Assembly: GCA_950295325.1 (NCBI GenBank)
Contig: OX485806.1
Coordinates: 17,360,001-17,424,000, forward strand
Length of the DNA stretch: 64,000 bases
Direction: 5' to 3'
From: Polytrichum commune
Lineage: Eukaryota > Streptophyta > Polytrichopsida > Polytrichales > Polytrichaceae
The notes under the pieces are model-generated. The model did not search any database. It worked only from the letters and a program-made list of their open reading frames with translations, and was not told the origin of the DNA. Shown piece by piece: positions 6,515 to 63,820 of this stretch. Numbering within the stretch: the stretch's first letter is position 1; each line of letters starts with the position of its first letter. The translations under genes were made by a program, and so were the position numbers.

Positions 6515-7582
6515 GGGCCGCTTTACACTACGGTGGAGAAGGCCTCCGGTCGGTCAAGAATGCTTGGCCAAGACATGGTTATATGAGGCAAATGGTGAAT
6601 GTGCCGGAGAAGAATTAAAGGCAATAAAATATTTCTTAAGGAGTCTTGACTGGTTGAAGTCTAAACACCTAGAGGAGAAGTCCACCGGAGAAGTCCACTA
6701 GTGAAGAGAAGTTCACCTAATGGTGAAGATTTTTTGTCATAAAAAACCATAATTCTCTACATTCACATTGTATCCAAAGATTTCAACAAGAATTGTGTTC
6801 ATAAGAATTGTGTAATATAATGTTCAATTTTATTCAAAACATAATGAAAATTGCCAAATTGCCAATTGTCAAGTTTGGCCCATGTAGGAAATAAATGTCT
6901 CCTTGGGTGTTTAAGAATGAAGAGGGGAAAACCCATACACATTGGACAAAGCACTACTCTTTGGTATTATTTAAGACATGCTCTCCTCTTAATCATCCTC
7001 ATCAATTTCTCTCTTCTTATCTTTGATCTTCAATCATGGATAATCGAAGAAGAGAGATTTTGTGCTCTCTTATGATCTTTATGGTTTTGAAGTATTTTAT
7101 CGTTTCAACTATGGCGATACAAAAAACCATCATATATCACCATAATGCTTCAATTATGATGATGGCATATTTTTTGTTTGGGAGCAAGGAGAGGGTGGTG
7201 TGGAAATTTGACCGGCCAAGTGGATATGTGTCACAATTTCTTCTTGGATCGTATAATGCAAAAATGTTCAAAGATCGTGTACGGGTGAGTAAGCCTACGG
7301 TCCAGATTTGTTTTTGAAAATTAAATTTTTATTGAGTTGGGCTTCTCTGGCCTCTTGAGGCCGGACAAGAAACTCCTCCTCCGGAGAAGCCCAACTCCAA
7401 AAAGTGCTGCCATGTAGGCGGCCATGTCATTTTATCATCCATGAGAAAAGTTCACCACCATTGTTTTCTTCACCTAGTGTAAACATCCACCAGTCAAGAG
7501 TTGCATTTTCGACCAATCACAATTGAGAAACGCCCTTTTTTTCATGACCGGTGGACTTCTCCACCGTAGTGTAAACCGGCCC
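6515..7582. mobile_element. Tourist/PIF-Harbinger-like element, about 1.07 kb, non-autonomous
   Basis: The left end GGGCCGCTTTACACTACGG and the right end, read inverted, GGGCCGGTTTACACTACGG form terminal inverted repeats of about 27 bp that continue into GTGGAGAAG on both sides. The flanking triplets are TGA on the left and TCA on the right, where the PIF/Harbinger superfamily normally leaves TAA or TTA, so one or both may have mutated. The inner open frames (for example 6851-7317) resemble no transposase. A degenerate relative at 20764-21123 shares the left 100 bp and an inner segment containing GGCCATGTCATTT. It is probably a deletion derivative mobilised in trans. Confidence 0.65.
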
Positions 7583-9230
7583 TCAGGCTTTGGGGTTCAA
7601 TCGAAGATACACAACCTAACCTTAAATGTACACGCATATTTTGTATGTTGATGATCTCAGTACAATTATATTTTTCATCTCTTTGGCATGAGAGATGTGT
7701 TGTATAAAATCCCAAACTTGTTACTAGATTCTTTTTTTTAAAATGTTTTGTGAAAACTCCCATAATTGCGCATATAGGGTTGTACGTTGATCCCACTAGA
7801 CCTTTAACTTTCAAGGATTCAATTATATCGACTTGTTCACTAGGTTAAAACAACCATCCTGAAGTTGTAGAATGAAAGGTGGGTGAAACGAGGCTCATAT
7901 GTCTATCTAACTAATTGATAGGGTTCATAATTGATTTTCATCCTATCTAATCAACCTTTGTGGTCACTCTTCTTAATCGTGCCTCCACATTTGAGTGTTG
8001 CAGGGCCAAGCTTGTAGTTCAGACCAAACAACTTCAATATTAAAAAAAATACTTGTTGCAATGAGATTGGATTGTGCGCTCAACATATAAACATCATTAT
8101 AGGCTCATTATTTAACATAAATGAGAGGTTCTATGTGATCATCTCAAGAGAATGAGATGTTTCAATTTTACCCCTTATAGCTTTTGCATCTCAACTAGAG
8201 TTTTGGAACTTGAAATTTCAAAATTGTGACCTTAAGTTTCAAAAGAGTGAGCATTGAAAGTATTACCAAAGCGGGAGGGTTAAATTATAAGTACACCCTA
8301 ACCTCCGTAATATCACCCTCACTAATGTCAATCCCTCTCGTATATCCCAAAATCCTAGGGACCGGATGTTCTTAGTTCTCATCTCACTCCTCATTGTCAT
8401 GTTTCCCTCCCACATATCATTGGTTTCGACATTAACACAAACCACCAAAGAATTGAAACCGCACGCTCACACACATCACATTGTCATCATTGTAATGCAA
8501 TGTTGACTTTTTGTGTTATTCCATAATATCACATGCTGTAACAATTCTCTGTTGTCACGCATCCATGCGAACACTACATCCCTCCTCAATATCACATGCA
8601 ATTTGGTTGCCACGGGCGTGGTGATATTAGGGAGTTTGGAGTACTCCATTGTTGCTAAGAGCGAGCACGTCTCATTTTGATCATTTCTTTTGAATGAGAG
8701 GAGGTTTGTAAGTTCAAAATGGGAGTGCAAGTAAATTTAGTTTGTTCCGGAGTATTCTACTAAAATCCGGAAGGGGTACGGTGTGGCTCGAGGAGGAGTT
8801 ATAGCTCGGAATGATTGAGCTTGGAGTTCCATGCAGGCCTCCTTTCGATTTGCCGTCTTGTTGGTTATTTGTTCTAGAAGTTCCCGCTAACTTACAATTT
8901 AAGGCCTTTGTTAATTGTCGAGTTCCACGAGTTATGTATAGTAATAATATTGTAAACTATGGAGTGAGGGGTTCCCAAAACAGGCTAAAACGAGGAAGCA
9001 TATGGTGACCTCTAGCTTGGTTTGATTGAACTTGGAGTTCATGGCTCCTCCGGCCTTCTTACTAACTTTGGGAAGCATGCAAAAGCAAAAAAGGAGCGGA
9101 GTGGTCAATTTAACTTATTCAAGTTCACTAGGTACTACTCCTACGACCACTACTATGGTGCCATGTCTATATAATAAGCCATGTTAGTACTAGACGAAGA
9201 ACATGTTTAGGTCAAACCCCAACACACTCA

Positions 9231-30458: not shown

Positions 30459-30822
30459 CGTGTGGGAAATTAGTGAAGGTGATACTAAATTTCTTTACAT
30501 TATGAAAGCAGTGATCGTCAAAAGATCTGGGAATCACTGTTCATCTTGGCATTGTTCACTGAAGATACTATTCATAACGACATTATTCATTGAAGGTACC
30601 AGCACTATTCATTTGGGCACTATTCACTACACTAAATATACCAATTTGTGAGTGTGGGAAATTAGTGAAGATGACATTAAATTTTGTTAAACTATGAAAT
30701 TAGTGCCACCAAAAGGTCTAGGAAGCAATGTTCATCTTGGCATTCTTCATTGAAAGTATTATTCATAGCAACATTGTTTATTAAAGCTAGTGGCATTATT
30801 CATTCTTGCATTATTCACTAAC
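30459..30822. repeat. imperfect tandem duplication, two units of about 190 bp
   Basis: The blocks GTGTGGGAAATTAGTGAAG, TGTTCATCTTGGCATT and a series of ATTATTCATT/CACTATTCA motifs appear in the same order from 30459 and again from 30651. By eye the units are roughly three-quarters identical. Within each unit the short ATTCAY motif is itself iterated. The coding frame at 30460 is incidental. Confidence 0.7.
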
Positions 30823-34969: not shown

Positions 34970-36075
34970 ATATTAAGCTTCCCAATCTAATGTGATTAAT
35001 GCCTCCACTACATGTACAAAATAAAAATCATTAATTAAATAGGCCTTTATTACTCGTAGAACCCACTTTCACTTTCCAAAGAGAAATTCATTGAACGATT
35101 TTTCATCCATAGCATGTATACCAATGATCGCATCAAACAAATAAAGGCAATAGGACAATAACTTAGCCACAATTCAAAGAGAAAAACTAAAGGGAGCCCA
35201 TGAGCCTCCAATTTGTGAAACCTAGAACTCAAATGCAAGCGTTAACAAGAATGGACAAGGTTGTCATTGAGGACATTACCATATGACAACAACATATGAA
35301 AACATGATTGGATGAAACTAACACATCTGTTATCAAATTTTTCTCCAAACCTTAGAGCCCCCTTTTGTACATGTACCTTTACTTCAAAATGCTTGATAGC
35401 CTTTCTAAATGTACACACTAGAGAAAAGTAATACCTCTCCCTTATGTATGTGTATGTTAATGCCTCAAATAGTTCCCCCCCCCCCCCGAATCCTTGACTC
35501 ATGTAAAACTATTAATGTACAAATTAACGTAAGTGTAAGAGGGGGTGTTATTTGAGGCATTAACATACATATACATAAGGGAGAGGTATTCTTTTTCTCT
35601 AGTGTGTACATCGAAAAAGGCTATTAAGAAATTTGAAGTAAAGGTAGGTGTACAAAAGGGGGTCCTAAGTTTTAGAGGAAAACTTGACAATAGATGTGCT
35701 AGTTTCATCCGTTTCACTTTTTCTTTCATTGTTGTCATATGGTAATAGTCCTCAAGGTCTATCCTATCCGTTCTTGTTAGGGTTTGCATTTTGGGTTCTA
35801 GGTGTTTACAAATTAGAGGCTCTTGCAATGCTCACGGGCTCCCTTGAGTTTTGCTCTCCATATTGTGGCTGAGTTATTGTGCTTTATTGTCTTTGTTTGT
35901 TTGATACAGTCATCGAGTTACATGCTATAAATGAAAAATTGTTCAATGAAATATTGTTCTCATTGGAAAATGAAAGTGGATTTCATATGTAAGAAAGGCA
36001 TATTTAACACAAGATATTTAACTATATCTTGTGTGTGTAATGGAAGCATTTAACACATTAAACTGGAAAGCTTCA
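34970..36075. repeat. long divergent inverted duplication, about 1.1 kb
   Basis: Left arm 34970-35490 and right arm 35535-36075 are reverse complements at roughly 75-80% by eye. Matching landmarks from the outside in are AATGCCTCCACTACA/AATGCTTCCATTACA, CACTTTCACTTTCC/CACTTTCATTTTCC, CATAGCATGTA/TATAGCATGTA, AGGGAGCCCATGAGC/AGGGAGCCCGTGAGC and the innermost GCATTAACATAC block. The centre of about 45 bp lies next to a 13-C run at 35475-35487. Reverse-strand and forward-strand frames in the two arms translate to similar peptides, which simply reflects the symmetry. No target duplication was identified. An old foldback transposon or an inverted segmental duplication are both possible. Confidence 0.7.
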
Positions 36076-48194: not shown

Positions 48195-48205
48195 CCTTTC
48201 CTCAT
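48195..48205. repeat. left target-site duplication of the foldback element
   Basis: CCTTTCCTCAT, identical to 49390-49400, directly abuts the first base of the left inverted arm. Confidence 0.85.
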
Positions 48206-49389
48206 GCAGACGATATGCTACCCCCTACGAGCTTTTCGGGGGGGGGGGGGGAATATTCTGTCAGGGGGCAGCCCCCGACATTTTTCCTGCACCCGCCCGA
48301 AAACTGCTGCCCGCCCGCCCGATTTCAAAAAAACTAGTGTACTTGCATTTTTGAAGGCTACTTGTCCACAAATCCCATATTGAGTGCACTTCATTTTCAA
48401 GGTCTCAAATGCAATATATATGTTTACTTCCATTGAGTAAATAAGCAATTGACTAGATTTCATTTTCAAAGTGAAACCGTCAATAAAGCATGTAATTAAC
48501 TTGGAAGTCAAAAATATTACAAAATCCTCATTACCACTGAGGTTATAATTTTTGTCACTTACAATTGAAAGGGACTTTGTCATTCTAAAATGAAACTAAA
48601 ATTTATGGTTTATTTTTATATTTTTATAATATATTTAATACCTTCTACTATTACAAAGTTTTCATATGCATTTAAACTAGTTAAGTAAGATTGAATGCAA
48701 CTAAGTCTAATAATTTCTGATTAATCCTAATTATAGAAACACAGAAGGACACTATATAGGGTGTAGTACACGGCTTTGGACATCGAGGAACACATAAGCA
48801 CTGTGAAGAACATGGATGTCATTCATCGTCCTTCATCGTCCTTCATCGTTTTTCATGTGTCCTTCATCGTCGCGAATATGTTAGACTTAGTTGCATTCAA
48901 TCTTACTTAACTAGTTTAAATGCATATGAAAACTTTGTGATAGTAGAAGGTATTAACTATATTGTAAATTATATAAAAATAAAAAAATAAATCATAAATT
49001 TTAGTTTCATTTTAGAATGACAAAGTCCCTTCAATTGTAAGTGACAAAAATTATAACCTCAGCGGTAATGAGGATTTTGTAATATTTTTGACTTCCAAGT
49101 TAATTACATGCTTTATTGACGGTTTCACTTTGAAAATGAAATCTAGTCAATTGCTTATTTACTCAATGGAAGTGAACATATATATTGGATTTGAGACCTT
49201 GAAAATGAAGTGCACTCAATATGGGATTTGTGGACAAGTAGCCTTCAAAAATGCAAGTACACTAGTTTTTTCGAAATCGGGTGGGCGGGCAGCAGTTTTC
49301 AGGCGGGTGCAGAAAAAATGTCGGGGGCTGCCCCCTGACAGAATATTCCCCCCCCCCGAAAAGCTCGTAGGGGGTAGCATATCGTCTGC
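48206..49389. mobile_element. foldback/Mutator-like element, 1184 bp, arms about 505 bp
   Basis: The left arm 48206-48710 and right arm 48881-49389 are nearly perfect reverse complements, about 96-97% identical by eye, from GCAGACGATATGCTACCCCC at the tip to TTAGACTTAGTTGCATTC next to the 170-bp centre. An exact 11-bp duplication, CCTTTCCTCAT, flanks it. Long inverted ends with 8-11 bp duplications are typical of Mutator-like elements and of foldback transposons, and the assignment rests on that structure alone. Each arm carries an inner near-palindrome, GTCAGGGGGCAGCCCCCGAC, beside a G14 (48238-48251) or C10 (49348-49357) run. The centre holds CTTCATCGTC units in tandem (48825-48875). No transposase is present. 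The 120-codon open frames in each arm are mirror copies and unlikely to be proteins. Confidence 0.9.
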
Positions 49390-49400
49390 CCTTTCCTCAT
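49390..49400. repeat. right target-site duplication of the foldback element
   Basis: CCTTTCCTCAT follows the last base of the right arm and matches 48195-48205 exactly. Confidence 0.85.
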
Positions 49401-49880
49401 ATCGTAGTTCTCTAGTAGCTTGGGCACCTTTCATCCTAATAATTCATTAAAGTGTAAAAGTAAGTTAGGCAGCCCAAAAAATAATATTGAAAATTGGGAA
49501 TATTCAACAAAAAAATAAAAAACAAGTTAGACATTCATTCCCGTTTGCTTGTCTCATTCCCATTTTTTATGGTAGTGAATCAACATGACTTGTAGAGCAA
49601 ATTTATGCTTGTATTGTTTTTAGATCATGAGTAAGATTGATGTTGTGCAAAGACACTATTGAAGTTATTTGATGATACTTTGTTGGTTTCCACTGAATGT
49701 CACTTGCATTATTGTGATTTTAGGCACTCTTTGAATTATTATTTTTTTCTAGGGGGGGGGGGGGGGAGGGGACTCTCAACGAAATTAATTTCCTAGAAAT
49801 TTAGGCACCTTTAAGTTAATTATATTTCTACCCAAGTTGCTAGAGAGCTACGGTAATTTTTGGGGCCCATGTGATGCTTA
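49401..49880. other. intergenic DNA with a G15 run
   Basis: AT-rich sequence with a 15-G homopolymer at 49752-49766 followed by AGGGG. No gene is recognised. Confidence 0.5.
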
Positions 49881-49889
49881 TATGAACAT

Positions 49890-50030
49890 CAATGCACGCG
49901 CATGTTATCGCTCCTCCACTACACGGGCTTTATTATTTTCGAAACTAAATTTAATATACACTTTGAGTCCACAAACTCCACATCTATGTTGCAACGACCA
50001 CTCTTCCATAGAGATTGGTACTCCAACTCA
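49890..50030 (+). pseudogene. APE-type endonuclease C-terminal remnant of the LINE
   Basis: One forward frame reads SSTTRALLFSKLNL and then LCCNDHSSIEI. These correspond to the S.TRIDYIF...L and SDH.PI blocks that close LINE endonuclease domains. The catalytic histidine is present, but the preceding serine of SDH is asparagine and the IDYIF aspartate is lost. The upstream endonuclease is not recognisable. Confidence 0.5.
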
Positions 50031-51049
50031 TTTTATTGTACTCTCATGCTTGCCCAAAAAAAACCAACACTATTAAATTCCAACATAAACTAGCATCCTT
50101 TAATATTACTGCCCTCCCCCAACCCCAACACCCCTTCAAAACCATATACTCTCTTATGTCGAATTCCCAAAAAATACCACACCAAATCCCCCATTATTAA
50201 AGCAACATCATTATGTAAATGGGGCACCAATAAACCAATTTATTAGTTCCTTTGTACATGGTTCCAACCCCACTCCTATTCCAAATGGATCCTAGAAAAA
50301 GATCTTTTTAACATTGATAATGTTTCCTATAACCACCACCTTCTCCTCCTCACTTGTCATTGTCACCAAATAACACAAGACCAAATTTGACAAAACATCA
50401 GATCCACTTACTCGCTAGCACAACGCCGAGAGAGACGTTACATCAACCATGTTCTCCACGTCCCTCACCTTACACTATCAACTTAAGAATGCAACCCCAA
50501 TAAAGATATCATCACCACCCAACCCACCATCCAAATTCATCCCCCTTCCAGCCAATTACACAATCATACATGAGCCTACCAAACATCCATCCCTCGTGAC
50601 CGACTTTTTTGGGTAATGGGAGTGTTTCTCTAGTTCCATACCCTCCATGTCCCCTACTCTACAACCGCCCCCATAAATCTTTGCCATTGAACTACTCCTC
50701 ATGATTCAAAGATATATCACCATACTCCCTTGCAAACCCCCTAACCATCCATTAACTCTTAACATGCATCATTCCTTACCAAATCTCATCCTTCGCCCCT
50801 TTCTCTACAATCTTAATATCACTCACTCTTATTTTCCATCTCCCCTATATATGCCCCCTCCAATTTACTTAATATTATTCCCCTCATCATACTCAATTCC
50901 ATGGGCCCTACTTTCTTCTACCAATGGGTACGAATTTCTATTAGCCCCCCAACTTTAGACTATGGTCTCCCACAAACTTATAACTAACTATGAACTTATA
51001 CACTCGTGCCCTTCATATTCATGGTCCAACCATGGTGATTTAAAATTCT

Positions 51050-52440
51050 TATCGTGTGTTTAACTAAGACGGCAATCGCCAATGCAATCTGAGTTTGAAT
51101 ACAAACATCTCTATAACCTCAAGAATGTGTACTACATTGTGTTTATGTCTATGACAATTAGCACTAGGCAATGTACTTTGTCATTAAGAAGAGATTAGTT
51201 TCCACTTTATCATTTGAAGAATAATTGCTCATCTCACAAATTTTTTATTTGAAAATAATTAATTTCTTCCCCTTTCCTTTACAGAAGATTCTTGGCTACA
51301 TGATGAAACAATGGACCACTCTCATTGTTTCAACATAAGGGTGTCACTATGTTTCTAGACAATAGGTTTCCCCCTTTGACAACAATACACACTCAAGGCA
51401 TCACACTCTGACTTCTCTGAGAGTAGATTATTGCCTCTAACAATTTAACTTTGTAAGGTTCCCACTACTCTTGTCTCAAGTAAATCGCTAGTTCAATCAC
51501 TCAAAACGTTATGTCACATCCATCTTCACATCACACTATAATCTCTCGTTCAAACATCAACACTTAGTCTAGAGACTCAAACTCCCCCCTTTCTCTTTGT
51601 GAATACTCAGTTACACTATTCTCAATAGTCACGCTGATGAACAATTCTATTTCATAAGGCTATTTATCACAAATAATCTATCACTCAATTTTCACAACTT
51701 GTCATACTCAACCCCGGTTCAGTAACTTCCCTTAGTTTTAACAAATCGTCACATCATGTCCACTCAATCACATACCATGATAAAAACACGATCTCTAGCA
51801 CATACTATTCATTTATTTATCCTCAACCAACCAACCTTGCAAGATTGTATGCTAGGTCCGTCCAAAATTCAAAAGACTTTGCTTTATCAACCAATAGCAA
51901 CTCATACAATGTCATTCAACTTAAAACTGATTTGTTGTCCTCAATACATTAGTTAAATGTTTGTCCTAGATAATCTTACCACATTTAGCCACACAACAAA
52001 AGGAACAATCTCACAAATAATAGGGGCTTCACACCCGATTGCTTCAATCAAACAATGGTGATTATACAATTTAATCCAAAAAAATATTCACTCTCATCCT
52101 AAGAGGGATTTCTAATTCAGAAAGTTGTTCTTGAGTCTACTATGATTGATTGTCGACTATGGCCTACATTGAGATATAGGGAAGAGGAGGTTGGTAATTT
52201 GACCACAAGGGGCACATGTGTTCATAGCCATATTTACAAATTCAACTTCATTTTCTCACATGCTTATTGTCCCTACACTAAACCCTCTCCTAATCTCAAC
52301 CAATAGTCATAATTTTTTACTTTTGGAATTACTAACCTCCTTTCAATGAAGTAAGACTAAATTTTAGTTTTCTTATTATTTCCCACTCTTGAAAGGAATT
52401 TCTAACTAAAAATAAACCAAATTTCAAGAAGATACCTTGT
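51050..52440. other. possible insertion splitting the LINE
   Basis: Base composition returns to ordinary AT-rich and no LINE motif is seen. GGGGCTTCACACCCGATTG at 52023 resembles AGGGCTTCACACCC at 57899 and 58147, suggesting that this interval shares a repeat family with the 57.9-58.4 kb region. Exact borders and any target duplication were not found. Confidence 0.3.
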
Positions 52441-52741
52441 TGGACAAAAACATTTAATGACACCCTCACAACCTATCTCTTCTCGTCATCCCCCATGACA
52501 ATTGGTCCCATAACCCTCGATATCATGAACCACCCGAATGTACACCATGTCATCACCATCCCCCACCAACAATGCAATACACCCCCAAAATGAACCTACC
52601 CACATATTACACCACCAAAGAACCACAATCAATTACAATCATATATATATCCATCAATCTCCACTATGTATCCCTTCACAATTTCCATTATATCCACATG
52701 CCACATGTTCGCACTTCAATATCCATCACGTATCATACAAG

Positions 52742-52760
52742 CCCCCCCCCCCCCCCCCCC
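52742..52760. repeat. C19 homopolymer
   Basis: Nineteen consecutive C residues lie within the G-poor LINE region. The proline run in the 197-codon frame across it is an artefact. The reverse strand is a G-quadruplex-capable tract. Confidence 0.9.
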
Positions 52761-52869
52761 ATTTCATCTTCATATCACACATGGCAAAACATCCCACCTC
52801 ACCGCCTCCTCTACCCACTAGGACCCCCCCCCTTTACCCCCATCCATCACAACCCTTTGCCCACTCAAA

Positions 52870-53290
52870 TACTCCCTACAAAATGCATACTACACCAATG
52901 ATACCTTTACACCCCCAAACTAGGAGGGTCACAGTAATATTGTTGATTTTGGTGTCTTTAATGGCCCTACTCACACCTCCATCGAGGCTAAACTACCAAG
53001 ATATCCAAACATCCTTCGTGCCAAATTATACGCAATTCTATTTGCATATCGACACACTAAAAACCTTACCATCAGTGTCTTCATATTCATTGATAGCCTT
53101 AATGGGATTTACCTTCTCCATAATTATATAAACCACCCATCCTCCCAACACAACCACCCAAATAAACTTCTAGTAGCCACTATATAATTTTCAATACATA
53201 AAATCATGTTCCAAAAAGTTTGAGCGCATAACAATATTTTTGGTAATGATAAAGCCAACAAACTTGTCGAACAAGGGGCCAACCGTGACT
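52870..53290 (+). pseudogene. RNase H domain of the LINE, catalytically broken
   Basis: In one frame the order is YYTNDTFTPP (normally YTDGS), IVDFGVFNGPTHTSIEAKLP, then RAKLYAILFAY (normally RAELYAIL.AL), FIDSLNGIYLL and, after an in-frame stop, AHNNIFGNDKANKLVEQGA (normally GNE.AD.LA). The ordering and spacing match RNase H type 1. The first catalytic aspartate (DGS) and the last (AD) are both asparagine and the glutamate of RAEL is lysine, while the DS aspartate remains. The enzyme would be inactive. Plant L1-type and other LINEs can carry such a C-terminal domain. Confidence 0.75.
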
Positions 53291-53589
53291 CTATATGTAT
53301 GGACCTCACCCCATTCCACCTCATAGGCAATTGAATACCTTAGTATCCCACCAAAACCCCTACTTCCACCCAACATGATGGCTCAATTCAAAATATTTAA
53401 CGATATATGGAAAACAAACATCATAGTTCACAAATCTCCTATGCATTCGTCACCTTCCCCCATTGATTCTAAATGGTTACATAACACAACCATACATCGA
53501 CCACAGTCCAACCTTTTTTGGAATTCAAAGGTTGCCTCCAATGCTCAAATCATTTAAGTCTTTAAATTCCGCTATGGCAGATACTTGGG

Positions 53590-54260
53590 TAGCCAAAATA
53601 TACAACAAATTTTCAACATCTCACTCCACCCCCTTTCCATTTTTTTCCGCCTTAAGCAAAACAATACATGCCTACATTTCCTTTCATGTTGCACAAACAA
53701 ACATGTCAACACCTTTCACACCAACATACATAATGAAGTTGTTCATGCACTTGCCACCATCCCTATTGCGTCGCTACATTTTTATACATGTTGGCACTTA
53801 CAACAACCGCCCCAAATAACACAATGTCCTCTTTGCTACTTCCTTGCACATATTTCCTCCCCCGTTGCAAATGCCTAGCCCGCCTAGACCAAGGATCTTA
53901 TGCATCAAAGGTAAATCACCCATCAATAACCCAACATTCCTCCCTTCTCCAAATGTCACCATGCAATTTATTAAATTTACATATTGCAATGACAAATACA
54001 CTGAAAATGCCATCACTTAGAAACATGACAAATATGATGTTCTCATCCCCTACCTTCAATGTTTGGGTTGGACTACCCTTCCTCCCATTATTATCATTGT
54101 TGGCATTGGAGGTACCATTCACAAACCGTCAACAACACATCTCCTTGATATGGAAATCCCTTACACTAGAATTGAAGTTCTCATGGGAATCATTGAATAC
54201 CTAACATACATGGTCCTCAACAAGCAAAAAACTAGAGAAATGCCAAACCCCTATTCCCTT
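53590..54260 (+). pseudogene. LINE C-terminal region, degenerate
   Basis: Three forward frames hold successive protein-like pieces: RYGRYLGSQ, then CLHFLSCCTNKHV with HNEVVHALA, then LLLPCTYFLPRCKCLARLDQ, and finally GWTTLPPIIIIVGIGG with STTHLLDMEI. The histidine and paired cysteines of a zinc-binding segment persist, but the leading C..C pair expected upstream reads HPLS. I attribute this to the same element because strand, order and decay state agree. The function of the tail is unknown to me. Confidence 0.55.
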
Positions 54261-54263
54261 GCA

Positions 54264-54292
<29 letters not shown>

Positions 54293-54294
<2 letters not shown>

Positions 54295-56196
54295 TTAAAT
54301 CATTACTCTCGTCCCCTTTGTATCCACCTATTGCGAAATAGGAATCATTCCATCTTCTTTTTACATTGTTTGATGGCAATATTATGAAGATGGCTAACAT
54401 ACTAGCTTTACGTCGGTCAACCAACATTGTTTTTATTTTATCTTATTTTCATCTGTTATTAAAGTGAAGATGGTTGTGCTTATTAAATGGTCATATAGGA
54501 TCCCTCATTTATGTTATTATTTGAATCTCCAATGGTCATCATATTTTGAGCATGCAATCCAATTTTTTTTGGACACAAAACATTTGGAATTTATTTTTAA
54601 AGCCACACCAAATCACACAACACTCAAATATGTGGACAATGGAGAATCTAGAAAATGTGTTATACTACAAGGAACATATCTTAATAGATTTTAGTTCACA
54701 AGTACAAAAAGACTCACATTTCACTTTAAGCATTTGAACTGAATAACAACTATAGATGATGACTAAGTTTGGTCATAATAATATTTTATCAGTTACTGCC
54801 ACATTTGGGATTTTTTTAATATGCAATACTAGATACTTTGAAAGACAACCTAACACTAAAAATAAAAGGATGTGCATGATTTACATATTTAAAAGATAAC
54901 CCAATACTAAAAAATGTTGATTGTGTAGGATTTACACCTTTAAAGGATAACCCTCAAACTAAAGAAAATTGAATGTGCATAACTTAGACAATCGAATGAA
55001 ATCATTAATTTTTTTTTTATCATTAGTGCATATATCTAGAAAACTAAAGAATATATGTGTTTTGTTTTTGTTGTTGGGTTCCAATTAAGAAAACCACACA
55101 AGGAAGACCAAATGAGTGTCAGGTGTTACATCTAGGGATCACCATTAAGTTAATTGATAGATCACAAGGGAATTAAGATAAATTTAGGACAACAAACCTA
55201 GGGAAAATGACTTCTAGAATGAATTTTAGGACATGTTTAATTAAGGTTGAAGGTCACTCACGGCAGTATATGCAATTGCTTAGTCACTCCCTTACAACCC
55301 ACTCTCGTCAGTATCATCACTCTTATGGTGATTTGGCAATACAAAGAGTCACAACTCAACAACGGTCTTTTGAGTGCGCCATAGTCTTATGCACACAAGA
55401 CCATAGCTCCTTGTTTTAGTCCATAGTCTCTTCCAATAGTACTCAAGGACCATAGGCCATACCACATATTAGATAACACTGCCACTCTATTGCTATTACA
55501 TTCCTGTAATTACAATTTGAATTAATTAAACTTAGTGTTATTATGTTCAATCTCCTCTTATTACTTCAGAATTGGCAAAACAACGTTCAATTTAATATTT
55601 TCTAAATTAAGTTGTTATAATTTGCAAAAGTCTAGATACAAGTGACACGAGCTAAACGAACCGGAACTAAGCGAATGAGTCTAATCGCTAGGACCATAGT
55701 TTGAGTGCCAACCATAGTCTCAATAACCATATCCAAGTAACGAGTCTCAAAGGAAGGCCATAGCCTTAGTAGCAGTCACTAGTAACCAGTAAGCGTTTTG
55801 TTCTTGAAGACATACCTGATCCCTTTTCCTTATATGTTGGCTTTTGGCTTCCCTCCCAAGCAATATGGGATAAATCAAGTTGTCGGGTAGAGAGGGTTCC
55901 GCCTTGGGAAAGCACTGGGCTTTTGGCTGCAACTGGACTTGTTTACCGGACCGTCGAATCTTCTAGTCTTCAAGAGTCATGGTATTCAGTTTCTTCAAGT
56001 CTTCAAACTCTTTCCCATCGACCTATCCTGTTGCGGCTCTATATGGGTCAAGGGTAAGGGTAGGGTGATAAGATACCACAGGCCTCGGACGGGTAAAACG
56101 GGACGTCAGAACACGAGCTGACGTCCGAAAGATTGGCTCCTAAACTTTCAAACCCACGGTGACCAGCAATCGCGCCTCACCAATGGGAACGACAGA
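54293..56196. other. intergenic DNA, nothing recognised
   Basis: AT-rich with short frames. About 54830-54970 contains two or three loose copies of an AAGATAACC/AAGGATAACC block followed by ACTAAA, suggesting a weak tandem repeat. No gene is recognised. Confidence 0.4.
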
Positions 56197-56289: not shown

Positions 56290-56810
56290 AATGGGGGTTT
56301 GTGGTTTCCCACATAATCCGCAACAAATTTACGATGAAAAATACAAATGCAACTAGCCTCCGAAACCGGCTTGGAATCACAAAAAAAACACAACGAACAA
56401 CGCTCTTGAGTCTTGTGAAGTTCTCAAATCTTCAAATTTGTCCGTCTTCTATGGTCGGTCGAAGCCTCGGCTCTTCTTTTTTAAGAACCAACAAACCTCC
56501 CTCCACTCAAACTAGCACAGATTTCGATTGCTAACTTCAAAACAAACAAGTGATATCACTCTTAAAGAAACAACTTTTTGAATCACAATTCCTTAGTATT
56601 TTATTTCAAAATTCCTCTCAACACAACACACACCATGCTTCAAATCAAGTCCCTTCTTCTCTACAACCTCCTCAATACCATAATAACACCACACCTCTCA
56701 TCTTCACAATGTCTCTCTCTCCTCAATGCCCGAGACAAAGTTCCATCTTATCCCCATCACATGGCTTCTAATCACCTATTGGTCCAAAGTAACTCAAGAT
56801 AACTAAAAGG

Positions 56811-57010
56811 CAAGAGTAACTATGAGTAAACAAAAAGGTAATCTATTTCTATCCTTTAGTAAAGGTAACTAAGAATAAACTATGAGTAGACATAAAGGTA
56901 ATCTATTGCTATCCTTTAGTAAAGGTAACTAAGAGTAACTATGAGTAAACATAAAGGTAATCTATTTCTATTCTTTAGCATAGGTAACTAAGAGTAACCT
57001 ATGGGTACTA
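56811..57010. repeat. minisatellite, about 60-bp unit, three copies
   Basis: A unit starting GGTAATCTATT.CTATCCTT and containing TAGTAAAGGTAACTAAGA and ACTATGAGTA.ACATAAA is repeated three times with period 59-60 bp and few substitutions. The inner GGTAACTAAGAGTAACTATG itself shows a shorter GTAACTA periodicity. Confidence 0.85.
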
Positions 57011-57028
57011 AAATCACAATGCAATTCT

Positions 57029-57061
57029 AAATACGTACACATCTATACAGTGTACGTATTT
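57029..57061. repeat. short perfect stem-loop, 12-bp arms
   Basis: AAATACGTACAC (57029-57040) and GTGTACGTATTT (57050-57061) are perfect inverted copies around a 9-nt loop. No T-run follows and no gene ends here, so it is not called a terminator. Confidence 0.6.
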
Positions 57062-59639
57062 ACATTACGACAACGTCCGGCCCGCCCGCAGCAAACTCCA
57101 TTTACGCGCGACCCCTTTCTTCTCCTCCGGTCAACATCAATGTCTCTTCTTCTTCCTATAATTACTTCACTCGTTCTATAATCATACTCATAATTGTGAG
57201 ACTAAGCTGCCGCACTACCTCCACAATTCTAACAAAGAACTCCATAGATGCCGAATCACATCCAAGCTTTCCGTCATCACGAATCGGAAATTACCCTTTT
57301 TGACAGAAAGAGTAGGCCATCACTGTAACTTTCTTACTTTTCAGACCGCATCCAATTTCTTATTGGAGAATCCCTCTCTCATATACGTTTCGGCATTCCT
57401 GGCGAAGATGATTTACTGGCACTTTCATGAGCAGAACCGTCGAACATTCTGCCACACTGATCAATTTCATCTAACTCATCACCGTGCTCTACAACATTGT
57501 AAGCTATGTATTTGAACATGTTACTCAAGGGATAATCATATTTAACATCGAAATTTTCCCTCTATAAACGCTAGGCGCTGCGAGAGAATTCCCAACTTGA
57601 TTTCCTCCCTCAATTCAAACATCTCTCACACATGTATTTCATCCCGACTACCTTATTTGATTTGAACTCCTCTTGTTGAAATCATAGAAAGGAAACATGC
57701 ATTTACCCACGTTGGAATTTCACATTCCATGCACAAATTGCGATCAAGAATCAAAATGTGATACTTGAGACATTTCAACTACTCCACGTAGTTTCAATTA
57801 TGATGCGTACTTATATCAGTCAAGACATAGTTAAAAGATTAAAACTCCACTGATTCATAACAAGATATGTATCCAAATAGGGCTCACAAATCAACTAAGG
57901 GCTTCACACCCAATCTCTAAAACTTAATTCTTCTCAAGGGTAAAAGTTGTACATAAAAGGACTCACTCTCTTCACGAGAGTAAGGTGTGTCACAATTCTT
58001 CCTGGACTCTTTCTTGACCAAGGAGTATATATCTTTGACTTAGTTTACTCACAAAGAACACCAAAGCCAGAAGTGTAATCAATGCACAAATATCATATAA
58101 AGTAGCTTCACAATATTATATTATGGAGAGTTAGGTGTACATAAAAAAGGGCTTCACACCCAGAAGATCTCACAAACTATAGTCTCATTTTTCAACAAGA
58201 CGATGAAGAGCTACCCTCTTCGCGAGTGGTAGTAATAATGATCCCCTTCCTTCTCTTTGACTATGATCATGGCCAACTTTTCTACACACAGAAAGTAACC
58301 GTCTTCCCAACCATTGTATCTGTTCATAGCCAGATACCTAAGTTTTTCTAATCAATCCCAAGACTATAGTCTCACCCAATTGACTCTTCAACTCTGGTCT
58401 ATGGTCATATTAGTTGGGAATAGTCATTTCCGCTATATCTTTACTATTTTTTCCATTTTTCACTATTCTTAAGTTCTAACCTTACTTCTGACCTTAAACC
58501 ACACTAAATTTCAAAAGTTTGTCTAATTTATCCAAAAAAAACGTCTCACAACATGTTTCTATTCCTTGCAACAATTTATTCTTTAAAAAAACATGGTCTA
58601 TATAAATGCATAATGTGAAGAATCATTCTTAATCACTCATTCAATGATGAATTTGAAACATACTCAAAATTTGTCTTTATACACTCCAAAAGTAATAACT
58701 TTTTGTTTACACCATATTACAAATATTCACTAATCAATTTTTAGATTCAATCTTCTTTCTAATTTTGTAACTTTGTCTCTATTGAATCGATTTGTTGCTT
58801 GTGCGCTATCTATGCTCCTTCATCACAACCTTCACGTTTCATTCCGTTTTCTTATGTATTCTTGTTTGAACTACTATGATTAATATGTTTATAATAATAC
58901 TCCTTATTTATATTGCATCGCTCATAATGTAGTTCAAAGTAAATCTCTATTCTAGTTTAATAAAAATCCCTACATAATGCAAACATTATTAGATCATATG
59001 GTATATAATATAATAAGTCTCTAATAACTTATGTTATTTATGTTATCATACTATTTATTTATTTAATACATATTTTAATGTAAAAATCGATTTATGTTTG
59101 TTTTACCTCACATAAGATACGAGGTCTAGATCTTAAGGCCTTTGTTAATTCCATTATGTTCTTCAATATATAAAGCCTGCATGTCCAATCCGAATTTTGT
59201 TCGGGTATATGTACTTGTATCAACGAGTGTGGAGACTATGCGATATTTTTCAAAATATCAATTGTATATATTTTTTTGTATATCACATTTTTGTAACGTG
59301 GACACATTTTTTGGAGCTTGCGTTAACATCAGTAATGATTATACAATAAAAGTGAAAGTTCTAATGCATTTTTAATACGAACACCTTCTAATGTTTCCTA
59401 CAAGATAAATGAACTATGAAAATGTTAATATCTAAGTCCGACAGCTTGCTGTACTTATTGTGCACGAAATCTACGAATATTTCTAGAGCATTCATCTATA
59501 CATTTTTCACGGATTGTGATGGTAGAATAAATATGCAAGGCACAGTCATATAACTATTGACATCTAATTGTAGATTGAGTCATGTCTTAATTCATTCTAA
59601 CATAAATAATATACATTCTTTGGACAACCTTCTAGGAGT
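57062..59639. other. intergenic DNA with a direct repeat at 57.9-58.3 kb
   Basis: AAGGGCTTCACACCC occurs near 57898 and 58146, each followed about 90 bp later by a CTCTTC.CGAG.G block, indicating a diverged direct duplication of about 250 bp period. The same motif lies at 52023. The rest is AT-rich without recognisable genes. Confidence 0.4.
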
Positions 59640-62499: not shown

Positions 62500-63150
62500 C
62501 TTGCGGAGAATGACAACCATATCGAGAGATCCGGCATTAAATGCATTCTCGCAATATGAACGGCCATGAATTGGGAGATCCACCAAATGAACGTAAATAC
62601 GGCATTTCTTAATGGAGTATTTGAGGTGGAGATCTACGTGAATCAATTGGAGGATTTCATACAAGAGAGGAAAGAACACTTTGTGTGCAATCTCAAGAAA
62701 ATTTTATATAGGCCCAAGCAATTGCCTAGGGCGTGGTACCACAATATCGATTCATTCTTCATCAACGAGGGTTTTTGTTGTAGCGAAGTGGATCATTCGT
62801 TGTATGTCAAACAAACGGGTGAGTATTTGTTGGTGACAATCGTCTACATGGACGATTTGGTCATATTGGTAAGCAATGTAACCCAATTGAAGTGGTTCAA
62901 ATTGGAGCTCGATAAAGAATTTGAGATAAGCGATCTCAGAGAATTGTAATATTACCTAAAAATAGTATCTAAAAGGAATAGAGAAGCATGTATCATCACT
63001 ATGAACCAAAGGAGCTACAACGAGGAGGTTCTCAAACATTTCAACACGGACGAATGCAAATTGGTCGGAACTCCGTTTGATGCAAATTTAAAATTGTTAA
63101 AACTTTTAGAGGAGGAATTTTGGAATGTACAAAAGAAAACAAAAGGTGAT
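62500..63150 (+). pseudogene. copia reverse transcriptase, inactivated
   Basis: The open frame 62566-62949 gives IHQMNVNTAFLNG, normally IHQMDVKTAFLNG, so the first catalytic aspartate is asparagine. Then come VCNLKKILYRPKQLPRAWY and the YMDD box in IVYMDDLVIL, which is intact. After one in-frame stop at 62947 the same frame continues through YLKIVSKR, YNEEVLKHFN and the GSLMYAMVATRADIAFAV block in the 63001-63411 frame. The enzyme would copy element RNA into cDNA. The order integrase before reverse transcriptase identifies the Ty1/copia rather than the Ty3 superfamily. Confidence 0.9.
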
Positions 63151-63820
63151 GCATACAAGGCTGAGGTAGGATCTCTCATGTATGCAATGGTGGCCACGAG
63201 GGCCGATATTGCATTTGCGGTGAGTATGGTGAGCCATTTCATGTTGAAGGCCTGTTCACCGCATAGGATGGTTGTAAAACGCATCATATGGTATTTGAAG
63301 GGCAGTTTGGACTTCAAATTATGCCTTAAAGGCAAGGATATTGCCTTCAGAGAATTTTGCAATGTGGATTGGGTAGGAGATGCAAACGTCCAGCGATCCA
63401 CCATGGGATAAGTGTTTCTTATTGGCGTTGGAGTCGTTTCGTGAAAATGCAAGAAACAACCAACCATTGCATTGTCTATGACAAAGGTGGAGTACATGGC
63501 CACTAGCCATTGAACGAAGAAAGCGGTTTGGCTTAGGCAATTTTTGGCAGATGTGGGATACATGCAAGAAGGATCGACATCCATCATGTGTGACAATTAA
63601 GGATGCATAACACTTGCAAAGAATTCCACACATCATTCTCGCACCAAACATATCGATGTACAACATCACTTCATTAGATAGAAACTAGAAAACCAAGAGA
63701 TGTGTTTGAAATATTGTCCAACAAAGGATATAATAGCGGACGTGCTAACCAAACCACTTGCAAAGGATAGGCATCAAGCATTAACAAATGCAATGGATTT
63801 AAAAGCCTTTGACTACTCGC
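63150..63820 (+). pseudogene. copia RNase H and polyprotein C-terminus, with stops
   Basis: Continuing in the reverse transcriptase frame are RIIWYLKGSLDFKLCLKG, a DWVGDANVQRSTMG block (normally D.DWAGD...R.STSG), a SMTKVEYMA block (normally STAEAEY), then MCDN, a stop, and GCITLAKN (normally CDN.SAI.LA.N), TKHIDVQHHFIR and IIADVLTKPLA. At least five in-frame stops occur, several explained by single changes such as TGG to TGA or CAA to TAA. This is the complete C-terminal end of the polyprotein, followed directly by the polypurine tract. Confidence 0.85.

Follow-up and report, generated by a model that had tools for sequence, protein, structure and literature searches.

The 64,000-nucleotide stretch of Polytrichum commune DNA analyzed here (assembly GCA_950295325.1, contig OX485806.1, positions 17,360,001 to 17,424,000 of the forward strand; hereafter the window) holds a foldback element of 1,186 bp that appears to combine sequences of two sister families of Mutator-like elements (MULEs), named A and B. 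The reading that we favor, with a probability of roughly 0.78, is that a foldback of family B gained the outer ~27 to 32 bp of family A, then received a loop derived from A, and was then amplified as a unit. Comparison with related copies across the genome (408 Mb in 64 contigs, seven of them large) makes it well supported that this is a real, fairly recent nonautonomous MULE foldback of mosaic origin.

Mosaic composition of the foldback

By edit distances and by comparison with A ends, the outer 32 bp on both sides of the element (48205..48236 on the plus strand and 49359..49390 on the minus strand) are termini of type A, with a T as first base in the window copy. The same 32 bp in sibling copies match A copies M39 and M44 at 31 of 32 positions at the left end and at 30 of 32 at the right ends. 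Among A-ended foldbacks, the outer ~27 bp had a mean edit distance of 1.72 to helper A (see below) and 9.23 to B foldbacks, and the relationship was reversed in the next 30 bp, inward of the G run (15.28 and 8.10, respectively); five rows without the marker were dropped from this comparison, and some rows were poorly trimmed inward, inflating the B figure. From that point, the left arm interior and the start of the center (48237..48733, plus strand) are close to 10 B arms and probably derive from a B foldback, the 33 bp at 48701-48733 being 100% identical to four of six B foldbacks. Likeness to B arms and the tree described below indicate the same origin for the right arm interior (48882..49358, minus strand). 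Within three A copies read end to end, the arm interior was not found at an E value of 1e-3, and the matches that it had, an 81% one close to M37 and a short one close to M41, were outside the A element limits.

Two pieces of the loop point to A. The larger, of 88 bp (48736..48823, plus strand), is 96.6% identical to A 8250-8337, which lies in the gap between the ends of two convergent sets of open frames, and the smaller, of 27 bp (48855..48881, plus strand), is 100% identical to A 8787-8813, inside a transposase-like open block and antisense to it. Three copies (L009, L011, and L012) look like intermediates, with A ends and a center of B type: the L011 and L012 centers can be aligned from end to end with B centers (best identities of 96.2% and 94.2%) but gave no alignment to A, while that of L009 was judged B-like by eye. 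A clade tree, calculated with L009 and L013 left out and midpoint rooted, placed 54 A-ended arms in one clade (100/97) inside the diversity of B.

Structure, ends, and copies of the element

The limits of the element (48205..49390) were set from 23 two-ended copies and from the alignment of its arms, of which the left (48205..48710, plus strand) and the right (48881..49390, minus strand) account for 506 and 510 of the 1,186 bp, that is, for most of the element, as expected of a foldback. With the outermost base left out (505 versus 509 bp), 489 of 514 alignment columns were identical, with 11 mismatches (8 of them transitions) and 14 gap columns, giving a gap-free identity of 97.8%. The center spans 170 bp (48711-48880) and includes a tandem array of the 10-bp unit GTCCTTCATC (5.3 copies at 48818..48871, by Tandem Repeats Finder). 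A 19-bp piece of each end, from 48206 inward, was found within the window only at both ends at up to three mismatches, and in none of 100 shuffles; the inverted structure is far beyond chance. A single fold of the foldback strand, run without a shuffle control, predicted an RNA hairpin of -891 kcal/mol.

Among the two-ended copies, the left terminal base was G in 22 of 23 and the right one C in 23 of 23, with the terminus reading GGCAGACG and single changes in some, and the first base of the window copy has mutated from G to T. Target-site duplications (TSDs) were perfect and 9 bp long in 19 copies, 9 bp with one mismatch in one, 10 bp in one, and missing in two (L009 and L020). Because of these terminal bases and TSDs, the window copy is assigned the 9-bp duplication CTTTCCTCA, the size typical of MULEs, with the same letters at 48196..48204 and 49391..49399. 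The original prediction, made from the letters of the window, had described arms of about 505 bp and 96 to 97% identity around a 170-bp center, able to form a hairpin of ~500 bp, and these features agree with our measurements. Its span of 48206..49389 (1.18 kb) and its 11-bp duplication need correction, since the latter extends the 9-bp TSD by a single matching base at either side. A mobile, long-terminal-inverted-repeat Mutator derivative, as it proposed, is borne out by the 9-bp TSDs, the dispersed copies, and a candidate helper that encodes a MULE domain. No transposase was found inside the foldback, also as predicted, and a candidate for the partner on which it would depend, family A, is present in the same genome.

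The genome-wide search for other copies and a coding relative that the original prediction suggested was productive on both counts, with candidate helpers in A and B and many copies of the foldback. A 195-bp arm query (best 40 of 1,930 candidates scored) gave 24 elements. Reading all of them showed 20 with the window-type center, three (L009, L011, and L012) with another center, and one, L013, with a single arm. Copies without the inverted structure, named beforehand as evidence against a foldback, thus amount to this single-armed one, the other 23 having both arms inverted. A query with the center (best 40 of 86 candidates scored, 41 rows, so that copy counts are lower bounds) returned at least 25 copies with most of the center, 23 of them with all of it, and nine loci with the 88-bp part only; six other rows were a 34-bp arm end and one was a second piece. 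Five further copies, L032-L036, came out of this query. Since many dispersed copies each have their own TSD, an assembly artifact as the source of the inversion is very unlikely. A query with the joined flanks of the window copy gave no match spanning both sides, as an empty site would, among the best 40 of 2,152 candidates. The right flank (49400-49519) matches a repeat with more than 2,000 first-look candidates, and the similarity starts near the insertion point.

Sixteen fetched copies (L009, L011, and L012 left out) form a burst, differing by 0.17 to 0.77% from their own consensus. Against its closest relatives in the sample, the window copy shows 98.4% identity; in an alignment of 25 copies, 6 of its 1,186 bases are substitutions private to it, compared to 0 to 5 in the burst copies. 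The description of the element as young therefore holds as far as its few private bases go, but their number is above the range of the burst and the differences between its arms are mostly inherited. This inheritance was apparent from an arm comparison of 15 elements (excluding L010 and L014, which lacked the marker, and also L011 and L012). In the 12 burst elements among them, divergence was 0.65% and 0.73% between same-side arms, 1.24% between the two arms of one element, and 1.40% when opposite arms were taken from different elements. In the arm tree, left arms clustered with left and right with right, the exception being L028; in the later tree, L035 had identical arm interiors. Foldbacks have been copied whole, arm-to-arm conversion is rare, and arm divergence is mostly older than insertion. 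We therefore rejected arm identity as an insertion clock, same-side arms being closer across copies than the two arms of one copy. As to decay driven by methylation, the two arms of the window copy disagree at 5 of their 12 CpG sites, but the burst copies showed no CpG excess, with changed sites at 2 of 64 CG, 5 of 55 CHG, and 4 of 297 CHH positions. The 3.4-kb copy L009 was considered as a coding element and discarded, as it is a foldback carrying other insertions; at L009 179-591 there is a far older arm relative (74% identical), 2.4 kb from the younger copy.

Candidate helpers in families A and B

The nine loci with only the 88-bp loop piece (L037-L045) represent one long element type, family A. 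Three copies were read end to end (12,018, 12,397, and 13,323 bp), with perfect 9-bp TSDs in two (AAAACCAAC and CCTTCCTCC) and 8 of 9 bases matching in the third, and with a terminal inverted repeat (TIR) of ~66 bp that is ~88% identical between left and right. With one end as query (best 40 of 78 candidates scored), seven left ends matched at no less than 92% and three others at 85 to 89%. The open blocks of A form two convergent sets. One ends in a Peptidase_C48 domain (PF02902; E values of 4e-5 and 1e-4 in two copies; 24 bits, over the cut-off of 20.7), giving A an accompanying gene with an Ulp1-like protease domain, as in VANDAL/KIU MULEs. The other holds a MULE transposase domain (25.3 bits in one copy, against a Pfam cut-off of 27.6) and, without a Pfam hit, a C-x-C...C-x-H motif that we take to be SWIM-like. 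Genome-wide, the transposase block had at least 99 matched rows (best 94 of 542 candidates scored), eight of them near full-length at 91% or more, and five of these eight had no stop. This domain and the termini shared with the foldback make A its candidate helper.

What the arm interior does match is a second family of foldbacks, B (L046-L051, L062, and L063), which is more diverged and has termini such as GGAGGACGTTAAGTACCCCCC; in the B query (best 40 of 2,006 candidates scored), 39 of 40 were at 90 to 94%. A search for MULE domains gave 142 matches, of which the two near B arms were fetched, and L062 and L063 were rejected as coding B elements, both being separate foldbacks. A pattern combining B-type ends with a MULE-like second half had 15 matches when up to three mismatches were allowed. 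The one at C7:16202251 is separated by 9 kb from a transposase block that shares 66% identity with that of A. This block falls within the limits of candidate helper B (C7:16202248-16215599), which has 13,352 bp between limits, the TSD CTAGAATAG, a 66-bp TIR at 88%, and an open 446-amino-acid frame. At its left end, the outer 27 bp are identical to a B foldback end. In a 65% relative, of which one end was read, the terminus takes a third form. Two more ends (G000:C2:348771-348803 and C3:6955564-6955596) are closer to those of helper B than to those of B foldbacks. The right end of helper B contains tandem arrays (78 bp × 4.9 and 53 bp × 6.0, at L066 450-837 and 961-1276), possibly family-specific regulatory targets; eight repeated 9-mers from this end were absent from six B foldbacks. 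In L063, the palindrome (6561-8118) runs past the ends of the B foldback (6697-7982), which has inverted flanks.

Proposed history and alternative explanations

Having gained A termini, the foldback would be recognized by the transposase of A and not by that of B, so that A's enzyme presumably moves the present element and B's moved its ancestor. The change may have begun with a B-family foldback acquiring the outer ~27 to 32 bp of its sister family, perhaps through exchange of the outer ~30 bp via a near-identical ACGARCTTTT stretch, after which the new A end could have been copied to the opposite arm by conversion like that in L028 and L035. Most of the B center would then have been replaced by the two fragments of the A interior, and the resulting element amplified as a unit. 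This order is suggested by the intermediates and the midpoint-rooted tree. If correct, it is a natural and traceable case of a nonautonomous element apparently changing its helper, in one genome where a candidate helper for each family coexists with foldbacks of the donor type and with forms that look intermediate. Among the papers listed by our literature searches, none described in its title or in the start of its abstract a foldback swapping termini between MULE families, although such a description may still exist.

Several observations weigh against this history. One of the three intermediates, L009, has no TSD, and the direction of the change depends on the midpoint root and on a bootstrap that is not yet settled. 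At terminus position 14, each of 50 A-ended arms has a C and each of 8 helper ends a G, so the foldback copies are no exact match to the present helper A. The MULE domain of A is under the Pfam cut-off (E values of 2e-5 and 5e-5; 24 to 25 bits), the exons of the A genes are known only as approximate open blocks, and helper B was read at its two ends only. Finally, the termini are homologous across the MULE clade, as the third version in the 65% relative indicates, and the exchange would thus have been between related ends. Such homology among A, B, and the 65% relative, along with the outer 32 bp and two loop pieces from A, would also fit an ordinary origin from MULE A by internal deletion and elongation of the TIRs, in which the likeness to B reflects common descent and the B termini are merely divergent. 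This explanation is already disfavored and seems to us quite improbable, as the arm interior is missing from the three end-to-end A copies yet close to B foldbacks, the likeness to A is limited to the outer 27 bp, L011 and L012 have a full B center, and the B ends match a separate long element.

A different role was envisaged in the original prediction, in which read-through transcription of the hairpin would yield small RNAs that could silence relatives. Taken as a Mu killer-like silencer of the transposase source, the element has in its favor a long, near-perfect hairpin and the description of Mu killer and long-TIR MULEs as small-RNA sources in excerpts of PMC3440606 and PMC10398659. However, none of the 1,414 distinct stem 21-mers and none of the 1,444 stem 24-mers was present exactly in any of the three helper A copies, since the shared 32 bp are interrupted by the fixed C at position 14, and an attack of this kind on the transposase gene, for which helper transposase sequence should be in the stem, is not supported. 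At up to two mismatches, 13 of 486 left-arm 21-mers matched one helper copy, all at the outer end, in a scan that required a match at the first or last base. The recent burst also suggests that the family was not silenced early, and we regard this role as improbable. What stands of the silencing claim is the sharing of stem 21-mers with foldbacks (394 to 666 with six of B and 818 to 1,024 with four A-ended copies); the only exact matches to helper A were in the single-stranded loop (48 to 78 of 300 21-mers). If transcribed, the hairpin should thus give small RNAs that target both foldback kinds while sparing helper A. The element makes testable how hairpins that are expected to trigger silencing can still amplify: here the stem avoids helper sequence, and the loop may hold the helper's protection signal.

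The last possibility would supplement the helper switch rather than replace it. In excerpts of PMC5735166, PMC10398659, and PMC13317346, VANC proteins of VANDAL MULEs bind dense short motifs, with KIU versions having a Ulp1 domain, and the loop could have been kept for target sites of an A-encoded anti-silencing protein of this type, an idea that is speculative and, in our opinion, rather unlikely. By motif count, GAAGGAC, overrepresented in A, occurs in the window loop four times (48744..48750 on the plus strand; 48828..48834, 48838..48844, and 48859..48865 on the minus strand), twice per loop in 15 burst copies, and never in the window arms. The top 8-mer of the A copy examined was GAAGGACA (16 versus 0.49 expected), and TGAAGGACA was found 11 times, compared to at most 2 in 200 shuffles. 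As for VANDAL/KIU motifs, enrichment is in noncoding parts, with 13 of 16 occurrences outside the approximate open reading frame (ORF) blocks and a strand bias by half of A (Fisher P = 0.0009). The density in A was 12.9 per 10 kb versus 0.32 in the remaining window, and four other A copies or parts had 14 to 18 occurrences. GAAGGAC is in both kept pieces, which 42 of 11,833 placements at the same spacing achieve (0.0035), a post hoc test made after the motif was seen. A also resembles KIU-type VANC genes, as excerpted from PMC13317346, in carrying a Peptidase_C48 domain. On the other hand, no VANC domain such as DUF1985 was among the hits with E values up to 1 in eight ORF blocks, although exons could hide one; L011 and L012 are motif free and yet transposed; motif numbers are lower in the most amplified subfamily than in the window copy; the motif was absent from all four B foldbacks that were examined; and two copies in 13,500 flank bases imply a background up to ~5 times that of the window. 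GAAGGAC was likewise absent from the 1,874 bases read at the right end of helper B. The combined picture of a stealth parasite, which swapped its outer ~30 bp, carries the anti-silencing motif of the new helper in its loop, and, with a stem that is almost entirely of the old family and is set apart within the shared 32 bp by one fixed difference, produces small RNAs that cannot perfectly match that helper, is rather improbable.

Other features of the window

Searches with the foldback gave no matches to viral contigs or to Rfam at gathering scores, and a literature search with the terminus letters found no match. Six ORFs of the window had no Pfam match at 0.01, including one at 62950-63411 that is presumably a fragment of a Ty1-copia-like polyprotein. 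A second inverted repeat (35310-35479 and 35541-35710) has 170-bp arms at 86%, and there is a 23-bp match to the foldback at 35468-35490. Beginning ~600 bp to the right of the foldback, C is much more frequent than G on the plus strand (50001-54500, with a skew of -0.20 to -0.64 per 500 bp, and again at 56501-59000). Tandem arrays are located at 30460-30820 (191 bp × 1.9) and 56812-57007 (60 bp × 3.3).

Comparison with known systems

Helper A is similar to the VANDAL/KIU MULEs, as described in excerpts of PMC5735166, PMC10398659, and PMC13317346, in its Ulp1-like domain, its short TIRs, and a short motif that is dense outside the ORF blocks and locally uniform in orientation; unlike them, it had no VANC domain detected in the eight ORF blocks, and any anti-silencing activity is hypothetical. 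The foldback shares with maize Mu killer (PMC3440606, in part) an inverted MULE-derived structure able to form hairpin RNA, but its stem is devoid of any exact 21-mer of the three helper A copies. With other nonautonomous long-TIR MULEs it has in common the 9-bp TSD, long TIRs, a MULE-domain helper candidate with the same termini, and an unrelated interior, although here its TIRs agree with the helper in the outer 32 bp only and otherwise come from a second family. Tm1 Mutator/Foldback elements of root-knot nematodes, in the excerpted text of PMC3169594, likewise have foldback TIRs, 9-bp TSDs, and both transposase-coding members and others resembling miniature inverted-repeat transposable elements, but they form one family defined by its own TIRs, whereas here termini and arms are from two families. 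In MULEs with multiple long TIRs, as partially covered by PMC3310237, TIR rearrangement also accompanies higher copy number; their TIRs are mostly tandem duplicated, while in this element the outer end seems to have been exchanged and a simple hairpin retained.
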